DNA of 64,000 bases from assembly GCF_004339085.1 (NCBI RefSeq), contig NZ_SMFX01000001.1, positions 819,227-883,226 on the forward strand. Direction: 5' to 3'. This document shows, piece by piece, positions 27,850 through 35,126 of this stretch. This DNA comes from Thiogranum longum (GTDB taxonomy: Bacteria; Pseudomonadota; Gammaproteobacteria; DSM-19610). Position numbers and translations under genes: made by a program. The notes under the pieces are model-generated. The model ran no database searches. It was not told the DNA's origin and saw nothing but the letters and a program-made list of their open reading frames with translations. How positions within the stretch are numbered: position 1 is the first letter of the stretch; every line of letters starts with the position of its first letter.

Positions 27850-27880
27850 TGACAAGTATAAATCTGGGCTATACTTGTCA
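27850..27880. promoter_or_regulatory. Operator palindrome before hipBA
   Basis: Perfect 11-base arms TGACAAGTATA (27850-27860) and TATACTTGTCA (27870-27880) with a nine-base spacer. A TTGACA and a TATACT lie within it, 15 bases apart, so a bound repressor would cover the promoter. It ends four bases before the hipB ATG. HipB-type proteins usually repress their own operon from such a site. Confidence 0.75.
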
Positions 27881-27883
27881 CAT

Positions 27884-28147
27884 ATGACCATATCTATTCA
27901 AAAACATGACACCGTGGTTGCTGGTCTGATGCAGGATATTCTTCGTCAGGCACAGGACCGTGGCTGGTCGCAGGGCGAGCTGGCCGAGCGCGCTTCGGTT
28001 CCCGATTCCAGTATTTCCCGTATTAAAAGAACAGGGCGCGCGGATCTCGCCACGTTGGCCAGACTGGCCAGTGCGGTGGGGCTCAGGTTGACGCTGGTAC
28101 CGGACAGTGACTTTACGGAAAAACTGACGCGGGGTGATCTGTTCTGA
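27884..28147 (+). CDS. hipB: HipB-like antitoxin, HTH domain
   Basis: An 87-residue HTH-XRE protein. The helix-turn-helix runs QGELAERASVPDSSISRIKRTGRADLATLARLASAVGL. It should bind the palindrome at 27850-27880 and neutralise the adjacent HipA-like kinase. The ATG at 27884 is preferred to a TTG at 27875 that would lie inside the operator. Its stop overlaps the hipA start (TGATG). A generic phage repressor-like protein is excluded by the hipA neighbour. Confidence 0.82.
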   Translation: MTISIQKHDTVVAGLMQDILRQAQDRGWSQGELAERASVPDSSISRIKRTGRADLATLARLASAVGLRLTLVPDSDFTEKLTRGDLF

Positions 28148-29505
28148 TGCAGGATGTGCAGTTCAGTATCTGGACCCGGGCCGGCGGGCAAGCGGTGAAG
28201 ATGGGTAGTCTCTATGTCACAGACACCGAGGCACGCTTTTCCTATACGGCGGACTTCGTGGACAGTGGTCTGCCTGGCCTGAGCCTGGTTTATTCACCAC
28301 AACTGTTTGCAGAAACAACCATAGTTCACCACCAGAGTGGTTCGTTGCATCCGCGCTTTCGCGCATTAATACCTCCCGCCGATGAGCAGAATTTCCAGCG
28401 CAAGCTGATGCTGGCTTTTTTACGTGAGAAGGGTGTTGAGCCGGGCAGTGGCTTTGCGGCGGATCTTGCCTTGCTGGCCCATACCGGTCACGGCGGGATC
28501 GGTCATGTCGATGTATTCCCCGATGACGATGCCGCGCAGCGCTGGTATACCAGCGATGATAGCGGTCCACTGGTACCGATCGGCGATCGTTTCGGTTTCT
28601 CGCTCAAGGACATGATTTCCTGGCTGGATGCGGATGCACGATTTATTCTCGAAAGCCTGGGACCGACACCGTCGGTGGGTGGTGCAATCCCCAAGTTACT
28701 GGTGGCGATACCGGCGGAAGGTTGGGACGGCCGCATCAGTCTGCCAAATCGTATAGCGCGCGATGATCGTATCGATGTGGTGCTCAAGATCGAACGTACC
28801 CAGGCGTACCCCGGGCTTGCTGCACTCGAGGCGCTGGCGCTCGATCTGCATCGCGAAGCCGGTTTTAAAACGCCGCGTTACTGGTTTGCCGAAGTTGGCG
28901 GGCTACCGGCGCTGGCGGTGGAGCGCTTCGACCGCAGTGATGACGGGAACCCGTTACCGATGGAAAGCCTGTATTCACTGCTGGCCTCCGGTGCCAGAGA
29001 TATTGTCCGGCACACGGACGGTTCCCTGGATCGCATCGGCAAAGTGATAGACCTGGCGGAACCCTTGCTGATGGCGGATAAAAAAACCGCAAGAATACAT
29101 CTGCTGGAGCGTCTGTTGCTGGCCCTGTTAACGGGCAACGGTGATATGCACCTCGAGAACCTGTCGCTTATCGGCGCGGAAGGCAAGGCGCAATTTTCAC
29201 CTGTCTACGATCCGACGCCCATGCGGGCCTATAGTATGCACAACATGCTGTGCGCCGTGACATTCGGGGAATACGGTGAACACCCGGACGAGGACGACCC
29301 CCTGCAGGCAGCGTGTATACAGTTTGCGCATAACATCGGCCTGCGGCGTGCAGACCTGGGGCGTTGTGTAGAACGTCTGCTGGAGGTGACGGCAGGTTAT
29401 GGCGAGCGAGTCGGAGCGCTGGACACTTTACCCGGCGAGAATCGCGAACGCCTGGAAGGGATTCATCGGGACATGCGGCAGCGTTTGCGCGGGCTGCAAT
29501 TATAA
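28147..29505 (+). CDS. hipA: HipA-like serine/threonine kinase toxin
   Basis: A 452-residue HipA-family kinase. An N-terminal HipA_N-like domain is followed by the kinase core: P-loop-like TPSVGGAIPKLLVAI, catalytic GNGDMHLENLSLIG and Mg2+ block FSPVYDPTPMRAY. In E. coli HipA, the kinase phosphorylates glutamyl-tRNA synthetase and induces persistence. HipA families differ in target, so the target here is unknown. The catalytic aspartate and asparagine are present, so it looks intact. Coupled to hipB with a one-base overlap. Confidence 0.86.
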   Translation: MQDVQFSIWTRAGGQAVKMGSLYVTDTEARFSYTADFVDSGLPGLSLVYSPQLFAETTIVHHQSGSLHPRFRALIPPADEQNFQRKLMLAFLREKGVEPGSGFAADLALLAHTGHGGIGHVDVFPDDDAAQRWYTSDDSGPLVPIGDRFGFSLKDMISWLDADARFILESLGPTPSVGGAIPKLLVAIPAEGWDGRISLPNRIARDDRIDVVLKIERTQAYPGLAALEALALDLHREAGFKTPRYWFAEVGGLPALAVERFDRSDDGNPLPMESLYSLLASGARDIVRHTDGSLDRIGKVIDLAEPLLMADKKTARIHLLERLLLALLTGNGDMHLENLSLIGAEGKAQFSPVYDPTPMRAYSMHNMLCAVTFGEYGEHPDEDDPLQAACIQFAHNIGLRRADLGRCVERLLEVTAGYGERVGALDTLPGENRERLEGIHRDMRQRLRGLQL

Positions 29506-29523
29506 GCAAGGCCGGAATAATTC

Positions 29524-29602
29524 GTCATTGCGAGCGTAGCGCGGCAATCTTTCTGGCCAGGTGCCAGTCTGTGTGAGATTGCCGCGCTACGCTCGCAATG
29601 AC
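29524..29602. repeat. Palindromic intergenic repeat, CATTGCGAGC family, copy 2
   Basis: Perfect 27-base arms starting GTCATTGCGAGCGTAGCGCG (29524-29550) and mirrored at 29576-29602, separated by 25 bases. Compared with copies 1 and 3, one base pair of the arm is changed in both arms (GCGTAGCGC versus GCGCAGCGC), a compensatory change that keeps the stem. It lies between the convergent hipA and HD-GYP genes. Confidence 0.85.
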
Positions 29603-29604
29603 GA

Positions 29605-31680
29605 TTAGTCCTGGTTCGTATTATCAACCCAGTCCGACCAGTCGCTGCGATTCTCGGCGACATGGAACAGGGCTGCAACCACATGACGGTCATACTTGCT
29701 GCCGGCTTCCTGCAGTAACTGGTCCAGTGCCTGTTCGATGCTCACAGCCTGCCGGTAGGCGCGCGGGCTGACCAGCGCAACAAAGGCATTGGCTACCGCC
29801 AGTATGCGTGCGGTCAGAATAATCTCGTCGCCACGCAGGTGATCGGGATAACCGCTGCCATCCATATGTTCCTGCTTCTGGCGGATGGTGTCGAGTACCG
29901 GGCCATCGAAGTCCAGGTCCTCGAGCAACTCCACGCCAAACTGGACGTGGCGCTGCAGCAGTGCCTGTTCTGCCTCGGTCAGTGGCGAACGTTTTGTCAG
30001 AACTTCCTTTGGAACAAATATCTTGCCCAGGTTGGCCAGGCTTGCGGCGAGGTCGAGGGATTGCCGTTGTTGTTCGTCGAGGTTCAGCTCGGCAGCTACT
30101 GCATTGGCAACTTCCACCATGCGTGCGGTGTGATCGGCGGAGTAGGGGTCATGCAGATCGACGACATGCATGAGGGTTGCGACCAGGCGGCGTAGCAGTT
30201 CGGCATGTTTCTGCTGTGCCTGCTGCAAGTCCGTGATGTCGTGCAGTACCAGTAATACGGCATTGTCGCGTTTGCCAACCCGATCGACCGGAATCGCGGA
30301 GCACTGAAAGGTTCGTGTTGTTTCGGTGAGCGTGAGTTCAAGCGTATCGTGATGGCTTTTGCGGTCTGACTGCACCTGTTCAACAAGACGGTTTAACGGC
30401 GCGGCATTCGCCGGTCCCAGTACGCCTGTCAGGGAGTTTCCAACCAGTTCCTGTGGCCTTGCGCCTGTCGTGCTGGCGATGAGGCTGTTGGCGAACAGAA
30501 CCTGCTGCTGTTCGTCGAGCAGCAGGATATGCGCTTCGGTATTGTCGGTTACAGCGTGCAGCAGTTCGGTCTGGTTCTGGAGTTCGTGGGTTTTTGCGCG
30601 CAGTTCATCGGCATCCTGCATGGCGCGTACGCTGCTGCCATGCCGCCAGGCGGCGACCAGAATGGCGGCAATGAAAAACAGCAACAGCGAGAAAGTGATA
30701 ATCAGCGAACGGCGGTGGCGGTTGGACTCCTGCAGTGCCTGGGCGGCGTTGACCTCTTGCACCAGAACCCATGGCAGTGAACGTAGCGGGCGGCTGGTGG
30801 CAAGTACCGGTTCACCCCGGTAATTGGTAAATTCACCGAACTGACCAGGTTGCATGACCGCGCGGGCGGCCGCAAGTCCTTCACGATCGAGAGGGAGTGT
30901 CTTGCGTGTCGGGATGCCGCCCGAGGCTGTCGGCGACAGGTAGACGACCTGCGCGTCCTGTTTTGTAACCAGTAGCGATTCATCGCTGGGCGCCACCGGT
31001 ACACCGCGGCGCAGCAACGGGTAGATGCTGCGTGCTGCACTATACACACCGAACACAATACCGCTGTGGCTCTGGCCGGATTCGGCGCCGATGACGACCG
31101 GAACAGGAACGGCGATACCAAACAGTACACGGTCGTGCGAGTCGGTGACCAGTTGAGAGTATTGTGTTTCGCCGGTTTGTAGTGCCTTGTCGAGGGCAAG
31201 CTGGAAGGCCTTGCCGATCTCCGGCATGCCCCGGGTAGCGGCAACAAGACGCCGGTTGTTATCGAACAGTGCAAGTCCCGTGTCATGGCGCTGCGGCAGA
31301 TTGGCCGGAATGGCCGGTTGTCCGCTATCGGGAGCAAGTCCGGAACGTTCGGCGCTGGCGATAATCAGATTGCGCAGGTAGGTCAGTTGTGCGGGCTCGG
31401 CGGAATTTTCTTTTTGTTCGCGTTGCGAGAGTTGCCACAGGTAGAGTTGCACGGAGGCATTGTTGGCCAGTTCGCCAAGTGTTCCACGTTGTTTGCCCAG
31501 CCAGCTTTCGATAGCTTCAACGCGTGTTTCGGCCACCAGCCCGAGGCGAATGGCCCAGTCATCCAGGTCACGCTGCCTTTCCCTGTTGACATAGGCATTG
31601 ATCAGCAGACCGCCCACCAGCAGTATGCTGGCCAGTATCAGTATGCCTTTGCGGATCTGTTGTGTATCTGTCTGGTTCAA
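29605..31680 (-). CDS. Membrane sensor with PAS and degenerate HD-GYP domain
   Basis: A 691-residue protein. Helices near residues 12-30 and 327-350 bracket a periplasmic sensor of about 300 residues (dCache-like in size). A cytoplasmic PAS domain lies near residues 375-495 and an HD-GYP domain near 500-690. GSGYP and the GYP part are present, but the metal site is eroded: canonical LHDIGK reads LANLGK (H and D to A549 and N550), HHE reads KQE, and the ADxxDAL block reads ANAFVAL. It is therefore probably not an active c-di-GMP phosphodiesterase and may act as a receptor. It lies 18 bases downstream of a LapG-like protease gene. Confidence 0.8.
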   Translation of the reverse strand: MNQTDTQQIRKGILILASILLVGGLLINAYVNRERQRDLDDWAIRLGLVAETRVEAIESWLGKQRGTLGELANNASVQLYLWQLSQREQKENSAEPAQLTYLRNLIIASAERSGLAPDSGQPAIPANLPQRHDTGLALFDNNRRLVAATRGMPEIGKAFQLALDKALQTGETQYSQLVTDSHDRVLFGIAVPVPVVIGAESGQSHSGIVFGVYSAARSIYPLLRRGVPVAPSDESLLVTKQDAQVVYLSPTASGGIPTRKTLPLDREGLAAARAVMQPGQFGEFTNYRGEPVLATSRPLRSLPWVLVQEVNAAQALQESNRHRRSLIITFSLLLFFIAAILVAAWRHGSSVRAMQDADELRAKTHELQNQTELLHAVTDNTEAHILLLDEQQQVLFANSLIASTTGARPQELVGNSLTGVLGPANAAPLNRLVEQVQSDRKSHHDTLELTLTETTRTFQCSAIPVDRVGKRDNAVLLVLHDITDLQQAQQKHAELLRRLVATLMHVVDLHDPYSADHTARMVEVANAVAAELNLDEQQRQSLDLAASLANLGKIFVPKEVLTKRSPLTEAEQALLQRHVQFGVELLEDLDFDGPVLDTIRQKQEHMDGSGYPDHLRGDEIILTARILAVANAFVALVSPRAYRQAVSIEQALDQLLQEAGSKYDRHVVAALFHVAENRSDWSDWVDNTNQD

Positions 31681-31698
31681 ATGATCGTTGCGTCCGTG

Positions 31699-32355
31699 TC
31701 AGTTACTCAGGTGGATCCACCAGTGTGATTCGTTGATCGAGTATACCGGTGCATAGTGCACGATTTTCCGGTGCGAGATGACTTCGCTGGTCTGGTTGTC
31801 CAGGATCAGGATATCATCATGGTCCGCAACGGCCAGTACCGCGTGTGGAATCCGCAGGTTGGTGTCCTGCAATACCACAATGCGCAGGCTGTCCTGGTCA
31901 AATCCGAGCCATAGCAGCGAAAACATTTTGGTGATGGCGTAGTCCTCGCAGTCACCGTTGTTATAGAGAAATTCCTTTGGGACCGCCCAGTAGTCTTCGA
32001 TGCCATAGTTGTCTATGTCCAGCACGTAGGGCTTGTTGTTGGCATACCGGTTTACGGCCTCCAGCTGTTTGTCGCGTGGCAAATGCTTGAGAGATTCGAG
32101 AAATGTCAGCCAGTTCCGCAAGTGGCAGCGATCCAGTTTTGCGCTTGAGCAGTCGCCTTCCGGCACATCGATTAATATATGCCTTTCAAGCGCTTGGACC
32201 CATTGTCCGAAGATAGCGGTGTCGGATTGAAGGGTCTGCTGGTAGCCGAAAAGGTTGGTGGGGAACGCTGCAGGGGAGGCCTGAGCAGAAGGGTACAGTA
32301 CCATCAGTGCGGCAAGCACCAGACCGGGCCAGGGAAGCAGGGATCGAATGTTCAA
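31699..32355 (-). CDS. LapG-like transglutaminase-type cysteine protease
   Basis: A 218-residue protein with a signal peptide (LLPWPGLVLAALMVLYPSAQA) and the bacterial transglutaminase-like cysteine proteinase fold. The triad is visible: Cys in YNNGDCEDYAITK, His in RIPHAVLAVAD and Asp in ILILDNQTSE. LapG in Pseudomonas is a periplasmic protease that releases large adhesins and is held by the c-di-GMP receptor LapD. This protein is upstream of the degenerate HD-GYP sensor in a two-gene unit. No LapD (GGDEF-EAL) is adjacent. Confidence 0.82.
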   Translation of the reverse strand: MNIRSLLPWPGLVLAALMVLYPSAQASPAAFPTNLFGYQQTLQSDTAIFGQWVQALERHILIDVPEGDCSSAKLDRCHLRNWLTFLESLKHLPRDKQLEAVNRYANNKPYVLDIDNYGIEDYWAVPKEFLYNNGDCEDYAITKMFSLLWLGFDQDSLRIVVLQDTNLRIPHAVLAVADHDDILILDNQTSEVISHRKIVHYAPVYSINESHWWIHLSN

Positions 32356-32433: not shown

Positions 32434-33740
32434 ATGGTACAAGACATAATAAAAACAAAACAGTGTCGGAGTTTACTGATGGGGGCAGCTCTGGCGTTCG
32501 CCATGCTGCCGTTAGCGCAGGCGGAAGTGAATGTAGATCCGGAGGTTGAGGCGACATTCCAGGAGGGTATTGGCGCCTTGCAGGAAGAGCGTCTGAAAAC
32601 TGCGATCAGAGCCTTTAGCAAAATTCTTGATATTAACCCCCGTCTGCATCGTGCAAAGCTCGAGCTGGCACTCGCTTACTATCGTTCCTTGCGTTACGAG
32701 AAGGCAGAAAAGCTTGCCAAGGAGGTACTTGATAACCCTGCAACGCCTCCTGAAGTACGCGTAACCATCCTGGCCTTTCTTGCCCAGGTCAAACGCGATT
32801 CTCAGCAGTATGGGCAGAAGAATGCGTTCAAACCCTTCATTTCCGGCGGTGTCATGCATGACAGCAATGTGAATGTCGGGCCCAATGACAGCATATCCGG
32901 GTGGGTGATATTGATCTGAATCTTACCCCCGGGTCACTGGCGAAGAGCGATAATGCCTATGTCGTCAATGCTGGTCTGGATCACCTCTACCAGTCCGGCA
33001 AGCGAGTTGAGCTTGGTGAACGTACCGGTATGCTGGTATGGCAGACAAATGCCAGCGTTTACTCCCGCAAGTACAACAAGTTTGATGAATTCGACCTGGC
33101 AGTTGCCAGTGTCAGTACCGGGCCTGCTGTGTTGATGTTGAGGCACTGGCGTGCATCTTTGCAGGTGCGTTCGGACTACCTGACACTTGGTGGCCACGCG
33201 CTTGGCTGGTTTAACTCGGTTAACCCTTCCATCACCTGGCAGTTCGAGAACGGAGAGTTGAACTGGGATACGATTTATACGCGGCGTGCTTATAACCGTA
33301 AGGTCGATGATGGACGCGAGGGCGATTATATTGCTACCGGGCTCAATCTTGGGCGGTATTTCAATAATCGCCAGGTGGTTACCACCCTGGGTGCAAAAGC
33401 CATCAAGTTTTTTGCCGATGACGATCAGTTCGGCTACCTGGGTGGCCAGGTGAATGCGGGTGTGAGTACAGATACCTGGCACAATGGTTCGGCCTATGCC
33501 CGCGGGCGCATTTCTGCATTTCAGTACGATGGCCGTGACACGCTGTTCAACAAGGAGCGTGACGATGTCGAATATCGTACTACCGTGGGCTTGTTGCATG
33601 AGTACAAGGATGACGGTGACCTGCTCAAGGATTCGGTTCTCAGTGTGTATTGGGAAAGAACCTTCAACGACTCAAACATCGGGGCATTGTATAGCTACAT
33701 ACGGAATCAGTGGATGATAAGCCTGACAAGAAGTTTTTAA
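32434..33740 (+). pseudogene. Slam-type (DUF560) outer-membrane translocator with a frameshift
   Basis: Two reading frames together form one surface lipoprotein assembly modifier. The first (32434-32919) has a signal peptide (GAALAFAMLPLAQA), TPR-like helices (residues 30-120) and the barrel start PFISGGVMHDSNVNVGPNDSIS. The second (32901-33740) continues with GDIDLNLTPGSLAKSDNAY and the strand-rich barrel ending RNQWMISLTRSF. Restoring one G in the run at about 32898-32906 joins them as SGVGDIDLN. The break is a mutation, a sequencing or assembly error, or less likely a recoding site. Slam moves proteins across the outer membrane (type XI secretion). The next gene encodes a likely cargo. Confidence 0.82.
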
Positions 33741-34028: not shown

Positions 34029-35126
34029 ATGAATACCGCAAGAAATATCATTGTTGCAAGTATCGCACTGGCTCTGGGGCTGAGTTCTGTAGCCGACGCA
34101 GCAAAGAAAAAGGAAGAAGATTCCGCTTACAAATGGGGTCGTTGGGCCATACTCAGTCCGGCTGCTGGCGGTCCCGAGACGTATGTGGCAAAACTCACAC
34201 CGGAGGCGGCACACAATACCCGTCCCCAGGACAGTGACGAGTTTCATCCAGAACTTGCGGACACGCCTGTTGAAGTCACGAATTTCTGCAGTGCGGGTTC
34301 GAATTGTGGCTATGCTACTTACTACACTGATGATGGCATGGTCGAAGCCGCATCGGCTGTTGAGGGCTATGACCAATCCGAAAATAATCCGGGTGGACCG
34401 GTTCTGGCCCGATTCAATCTCGAGGCATCGGATTCAGCAGACACATCGACAGGTGTCGAGGCGGCTGCTGTTGGCGGTGGCGCGGGTGGTGTTCAGCAGG
34501 TGAATTTCGAAGTCACCGGTACTGAAAATCCGGACTTTCCTGATATTGCTTCTGTCGATATGGAAGGTGAGGGAAGCTATACCGGCACAGTCACCAGTCG
34601 CGAGATCGTGCGTGAAGAGAATGGTATACGTGTCACGCAGCAAAGCCAGACTTCAACGCTTACCGAGCAGTTTGACTTCGATGCTGATACTGGTAGCTGG
34701 AGTGACGAACAACTGACCCAAACACGAATTAATACGGGTGGTCCTGTAAATCCTCCCATCATCGACTTCTTCTCTGCAAACGGTTACTTTGCCTTTGGAA
34801 GTACGCCAACCATTGAACAGATGGAAACATTTGCCGCCGGCAATGTCACGGCTATCTACCAGGGTGTCGTGCTGGATTACAATTCGGCAGTTACCATGGA
34901 GTTCAATCTGGGCAATGACACGGTGGTAGGTCGCTTTGCTTCCGAGAATGGATTTAACGGCTTTGAAGCAACAGGTGCTGTGGAGGGAGTGAACTTTACA
35001 GCAGCAGATGGTGATAATGGTTTTGTAGGCAGTTTTTTCTCCGGGGGTGAAAATGCTTCCGGTGCAGTAAAGAATGCGACCCAGCTGGGCATTTTCTCTG
35101 CAGACCATATTGTCGACGCAAAGTAA
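34029..35126 (+). CDS. Secreted protein with TbpB-like C-terminal barrel, likely Slam cargo
   Basis: A 365-residue exported protein. The signal peptide (NIIVASIALALGLSSVADA) lacks a lipobox, so it is a soluble secreted protein. A lysine-rich segment (AKKKEEDS) and a variable region follow. The C-terminal 100 residues (GNDTVVGRFASEN, GVNFTAADGDNGFVGSFFSG, ATQLGIFSADHI) resemble the TbpB-type eight-strand domain that Slam systems recognise. GGGGA precedes the ATG at 34029. The gene follows the Slam-like gene and ends in a terminator. Its ligand is unknown; known relatives bind transferrin, haem or other host iron carriers. Confidence 0.75.
   Translation: MNTARNIIVASIALALGLSSVADAAKKKEEDSAYKWGRWAILSPAAGGPETYVAKLTPEAAHNTRPQDSDEFHPELADTPVEVTNFCSAGSNCGYATYYTDDGMVEAASAVEGYDQSENNPGGPVLARFNLEASDSADTSTGVEAAAVGGGAGGVQQVNFEVTGTENPDFPDIASVDMEGEGSYTGTVTSREIVREENGIRVTQQSQTSTLTEQFDFDADTGSWSDEQLTQTRINTGGPVNPPIIDFFSANGYFAFGSTPTIEQMETFAAGNVTAIYQGVVLDYNSAVTMEFNLGNDTVVGRFASENGFNGFEATGAVEGVNFTAADGDNGFVGSFFSGGENASGAVKNATQLGIFSADHIVDAK

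Follow-up and report, generated by a model that had tools for sequence, protein, structure and literature searches.

How is a LapG-type periplasmic protease controlled in a genome that carries no LapD, and which protein does it cut? This question is raised by a pair of neighboring genes, protease and receptor, separated by 18 bp on the same strand of the window (the whole 64,000-nucleotide stretch of DNA that was analyzed):

31699 to 32355, minus strand: LapG/DvhG-like periplasmic cysteine protease (Peptidase_C93, 218 amino acids, TTG start, signal peptide, triad C136-H171-D186)
29605 to 31680, minus strand: DvhD-type receptor (691 amino acids) made up of a transmembrane (TM) helix, a periplasmic dCache domain, a second TM helix, a PAS domain, and a degenerate HD-GYP domain

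The initial annotation had described both genes, and its coordinates, spacing, and C-H-D triad were all confirmed.

By its sequence, the first of these proteins is a member of the BTLCP/Peptidase_C93 superfamily, with the domain, the C-H-D triad, and the calcium-site residues all present. Its score against Pfam Peptidase_C93 was 68.5 bits, where the cut-off is 27, and the solved LapGs 4fgo and 4u65 were among its PDB matches; against the NCBIfam LapG equivalog NF045674, it scored 77.1 bits, below that model's cut-off of 320. The triad showed no variation across 15 relatives, and neither did the Cys-flanking residues D135 and E137, the counterparts of the DvhG calcium-site residues D316 and E318.

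The receptor has predicted TM helices at about residues 13 to 31 and 326 to 344, and Pfam detected PAS and HD_5 domains in it, the latter at 151.7 bits. Within the HD-GYP domain, HD is replaced by AN (in LANLGK), HH by KQ, one Asp by Asn, and another by Val, so the losses named in the initial annotation (the HD pair, both His residues, and an Asp) are real. The degenerate motifs LANLGK, QKQEH, and VANAFVAL are retained in relatives at 60 to 82% identity. Across 23 relatives from several families, down to 35% identity, the second motif residue is Asn and the metal-binding Asp is Asn in all 23, and the first HH position is Lys or Ser in every one. Because the loss is fixed across these relatives, the degeneracy is conserved rather than a product of decay, and the HD-GYP domain appears to be maintained as a nonenzyme. 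The named relatives, found by protein search, were Thiohalobacter metagenome-assembled genomes and one unclassified gammaproteobacterium; a scan of genome contigs for the receptor gave five loci, three of them close relatives.

The initial annotation had also proposed that a protease paired with a dead HD-GYP receptor would be a new arrangement. This did not hold, since the same arrangement has already been published for Desulfovibrio vulgaris, in which DvhG is a LapG-type protease and DvhD is a receptor with dCache, PAS, and HD-GYP domains (Font et al. 2026, PMC13090378). In the HD-GYP domain of DvhD, SQ replaces HD, and M and N replace the two His residues; the protein binds c-di-GMP (Kd of about 99 nM) without hydrolyzing it, and crystal structures have been solved (PMC13090378). 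Control of DvhG by DvhD was reconstituted in P. fluorescens, according to reference 30 as cited in PMC13090378.

We compared the window's receptor with DvhD, taking the DvhD sequence from its PDB chains. The DvhD PAS/HD-GYP chains were the best match by sequence (E value of 9.7e-50, about 34% identity over PAS/HD-GYP), far above other solved HD-GYP proteins. A receptor model built on 23 sequences (mean pLDDT of 82) matched DvhD 9rc0 at Z 25.6 (288 aligned residues, rmsd 4.7) and 9rbz at Z 25.0 (198 aligned, rmsd 2.9). Among solved dCache domains, the periplasmic DvhD structure 9rc2 came first (Z 21.9, 245 aligned, rmsd 3.3); the others reached about Z 18, behind all three DvhD structures. Because these three structures lead the fold matches, the periplasmic domain included, the receptor is, by sequence and modeled fold, a DvhD ortholog over all of its domains. 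In both systems, a C93 protease gene adjoins that of a receptor with dCache, PAS, and degenerate HD-GYP domains, and the dead motif positions and the periplasmic fold are the same.

Next, we examined the ligand site, for which all of the DvhD residue numbers of PMC13090378 fell on the right letters in our alignment. All 23 relatives retain L577, Y621, and R650, and 22 of them retain P567; Y652 is Tyr or Trp. Six of the eight canonical c-di-GMP contacts are identical in the window's receptor; K582 and M646 are replaced by Gln and Leu, and the bridging-site residues K520 and R569 are replaced by His and Glu. From these residues, we infer that the receptor binds c-di-GMP.

The pair was then set against the LapD/LapG system of Pseudomonas fluorescens and its relatives, with which it shares the protease superfamily, the active site, and the proposed inside-out control. 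LapD combines a LapD/MoxY periplasmic domain with a degenerate GGDEF-EAL module, whereas the window's receptor contains none of these. The window's genome is complete (a single 2.9-Mb contig), and the LapD domain PF16448 was absent from it, although an equal search detected this domain in 76 of 369 gammaproteobacterial genomes. With one C93 gene in the genome as well, the LapD-free state that the initial annotation had suspected was borne out, and a classical LapD encoded elsewhere in the genome was rejected. It is very likely that a dead HD-GYP receptor for c-di-GMP controls a LapG-type protease from the inside out in this LapD-free setting, and we have high confidence that receptor and protease form a DvhDG system whose lineage and context are new.

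Among the 369 genomes, DvhD-like receptors occur in 15, from 11 genera, and in each of the 15 a C93 gene adjoins the receptor gene (24 to 174 bp between the matches in 14 of them). C93 is present in 70 genomes overall, and two genomes (G262 and G362) each encode one protease linked to DvhD and another, separate one linked to LapD. In a comparison that leaves out L067 and L073, the readable DvhD-linked proteases are mostly 50 to 70% identical to the window's protease (L071, 37%); the LapD-linked proteases are 28 to 34% identical to it (28 to 37% with the solved LapGs included) and 50 to 61% identical to the solved LapGs. DvhD-linked proteases also have an additional N-terminal segment with two conserved cysteines (C69 and C77) that was not seen in LapD-linked LapGs. 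DvhD orthologs are thereby placed in several gammaproteobacterial families, sometimes alongside a separate LapG-LapD pair in one genome, and this bears on the route by which DvhD took the place of LapD, a question raised in PMC13090378. The class-level distribution figure of that paper may already include gammaproteobacterial DvhDG pairs.

Unlike DvhDG, the window's pair resides in a gammaproteobacterial host, and its protease has a predicted signal peptide, whereas DvhG has a TM anchor plus a linker. The neighbors differ too. DvhDG lies beside a type 1 secretion system (T1SS) and a giant adhesin, and no such T1SS/retention-module adhesin operon is adjacent to the window's pair, which is flanked instead by genes for a Slam-like outer-membrane protein and a secreted PAAG protein:

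32434 to 32919, plus strand: Slam-like outer-membrane protein, TPR half; this gene and that of the protease diverge, their start codons 78 bp apart
32901 to 33740, plus strand: Slam-like outer-membrane protein, barrel half (in a relative, the modeled protein has a TPR region and a 14-strand barrel)
34029 to 35126, plus strand: secreted protein with an N-terminal DS..WGxW..PAAG module, the proposed client of the protease
34134 to 34145, plus strand: WGRW of the module (residues 36 to 39)
34158 to 34169, plus strand: PAAG (residues 44 to 47), the predicted cleavage motif, invariant in 18 aligned sequences

In relatives, the DvhDG pair usually diverges from two genes, one for a TPR-barrel protein and one for a secreted protein. 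The TPR-barrel gene is intact there, and in the window it is split into two frames at 32890 to 32920 (about 32910) by a 1-base deletion relative to those genes. The window's genome yielded no second strong copy, and the frameshift could be genuine or could stem from the assembly. The encoded protein is best called Slam-like on its sequence and predicted fold. At E values of ≤0.1, TPR_Slam matched 21 of 21 such proteins and SlipAM matched 8 of 21, and the four members scored against Pfam all fell below the curated cut-offs. The model of a relative's protein (mean pLDDT of 86.5) has a TPR region and 14 strands. A fold search with it returned 14-strand porins such as OmpG and CymA, with no Slam structure among the matches listed, and the Slam-like profile matched only TPR proteins among solved structures. 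The modeled TPR plus 14-strand barrel resembles outer-membrane proteins of Slam/type 11 secretion (T11SS), with weak Pfam scores in this clade.

Apart from the first Met, the invariant positions in an alignment of 18 partner sequences, 12 of which come from one genus, are D31, S32, G37, W39, P44, A45, A46, and G47. PAAG agrees with the cleavage consensus published for LapG/DvhG, [T/A/P]AAG (PMC13090378); deviating partners carry PLAG (L076) or PEAG (L125). The motif lies about 20 residues past the predicted signal peptide, and the partner has no separate retention domain. Whereas the N terminus is conserved across the family, the rest varies, with a TbpB-like barrel in some members and a proline-rich tail in others. 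The L069 partner exceeds the TbpB_B_D cut-off (27.7 versus 26), and Pfam gave no TbpB-like hit in the window's partner. The TbpB-like C-terminal barrel at some loci resembles T11SS cargo; unlike such cargo, the window's candidate has no lipobox and carries a WGxW-PAAG module. At three loci, a gene for a short PAAG protein is followed by a gene for a secreted protein (L070:4806-5567, L072:4638-5297, and L124:8949-9683), and PEP-CTERM/VPLPA-CTERM scored over its cut-off in two of these secreted proteins and below it in one.

We also searched the 369 genomes with a profile of the module. It was found in 11 of the 15 DvhD genomes, or 12 with the PLAG variant (L076) recognized by eye, and no module was accepted in any of the 299 genomes without C93. 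Outside the DvhD genomes, the only accepted matches were in G108 and G177, where classical LapG-LapD genes adjoin a Slam-like gene. These two were accepted only by position, after a signal peptide and beside the Slam-like and LapG-LapD genes, as their E values are similar to those of weak matches in G138, G114, and G286 (0.002 to 0.007), which were rejected as chance hits inside unrelated or spurious frames. The G108 partner (L124) reads WGHW-MEDDIAKRILLGADP-SQITEP-TAAG, which we took as a helix, DP, and TAAG; this WGxW-helix-DP-TAAG order agrees with the published LapG substrate consensus. The G177 partner carries PEAG. In G053, a genome lacking C93, a Slam-like gene matches strongly and has no PAAG partner. 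The Fisher test of module against C93 gave 2.5e-11, a figure to be read only as a guide: the genomes include relatives that do not count as independent, part of the calls relied on inspection by eye, and DvhD loci had supplied the sequences for the profile.

Taken together, these results point to a DvhDG-type c-di-GMP switch with the PAAG neighbor as its most likely client in this lineage, a scheme to which we assign a probability of roughly 0.6. The dead HD-GYP domain would bind c-di-GMP and leave it uncut, and binding would change the stalk, the TM helices, and the dCache domain such that the periplasmic protease is restrained. When c-di-GMP falls, the protease would be freed and would cut the N-terminal PAAG of the neighboring secreted protein between its two alanines. 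The outer-membrane protein encoded by the divergent Slam-like gene would handle the protein that is thereby released or processed. The protease family, active site, dead catalytic site, ligand residues, linkage, and invariant PAAG are established at the level of sequence and model. By analogy with the known systems, the receptor would sequester the protease. From its motif and its linkage, the PAAG partner, whose gene lies outside the coordinates of the initial annotation, is a plausible and, in our judgment, probable client; its export by the Slam-like protein is a weaker proposal. If the neighbor is cleaved, c-di-GMP would control the shedding of proteins associated with another route of export across the outer membrane, and PAAG offers a direct handle for biochemical testing of this claim.

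The LapG-family clients described before are of two kinds, T1SS adhesins and two-partner adhesins (CdrA). At somewhat less than even odds, we tentatively propose a third: proteins handled by Slam-like (type 11) outer-membrane proteins, tagged with WGxW-(helix-DP)-[T/P]AAG and released under c-di-GMP control through either DvhD or LapD. A partial literature search found no paper tying LapG-family proteases to Slam/T11SS or DUF560 proteins, and none tying T11SS to c-di-GMP, and we did not find the neighborhood of a Slam-like protein and a PAAG protein beside the pair in print. That the pair lies beside this exporter and a secreted protein bearing the recognition motif of the protease hints that the release switch has acquired a new client.

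In an unlikely alternative, the pair works as a plain DvhDG system on a large T1SS adhesin encoded elsewhere, and the Slam-like/PAAG linkage reflects only shared regulation or ancestry. DvhG itself cuts two large adhesins, one encoded away from the dvh operon (PMC13090378), and the window's genome has one full-length LssB-like T1SS locus with a substrate of 2,699 amino acids. That substrate, however, contains no [TAP]AAG, and family searches found no LapA retention module (NF033682) in the genome, so the LapA-type adhesin that the initial annotation had looked to was rejected as the client. The genome was searched for adhesins by family only, which leaves some room for a distant one. Several well-assembled relatives (e.g., G011 and G015) retain the pair but lack a full-length LssB-like ATPase. 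The PAAG of the partner is invariant, and the partner accompanies LapG-LapD loci too. In one family (f57; L073/L075), a giant tandem-repeat protein and a TolC-like gene are found near the DvhDG pair in place of the usual neighbors, so the client may vary by lineage. The f57 giant tandem-95-repeat protein (L134:15743-19001 and L073:3-3005) starts with MKLLKLENRIVLDAA.

Less probable still is a reading in which the small PAAG protein is not exported as a client but acts as a regulator, plug, or decoy, occupying either the protease or the Slam-like barrel. A length of just 100 to 170 amino acids or so, with a proline-rich tail and no barrel domain, is seen in several partners, but others run into a TbpB-like barrel, a known T11SS cargo signal, which in L069 passes the Pfam cut-off. 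Finally, that the degenerate HD-GYP domain reads another ligand or only dimerizes while the dCache domain senses an external one is very improbable: DvhD does bind 3'3'-cGAMP, more weakly (PMC13090378), and some canonical-site residues are altered here, but the core contacts to c-di-GMP are retained, and the genome, with at least 19 near-full-length EAL domains, is rich in c-di-GMP signaling.

Beyond the proposed DvhDG switch and its PAAG client, two further elements lie at the 3' end of the pair, the first of them just past the receptor stop codon:

29522 to 29604, no strand assigned: 29-nucleotide perfect inverted repeat with a 25-nucleotide spacer, possibly a terminator or a REP-like element
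27875 to 29505: an HTH antitoxin-like gene and a HipA-family gene, between pssA and the receptor gene

The HipA gene was seen only in some relatives (L036, L037, L042, and L048) and so looks like a variable insertion.
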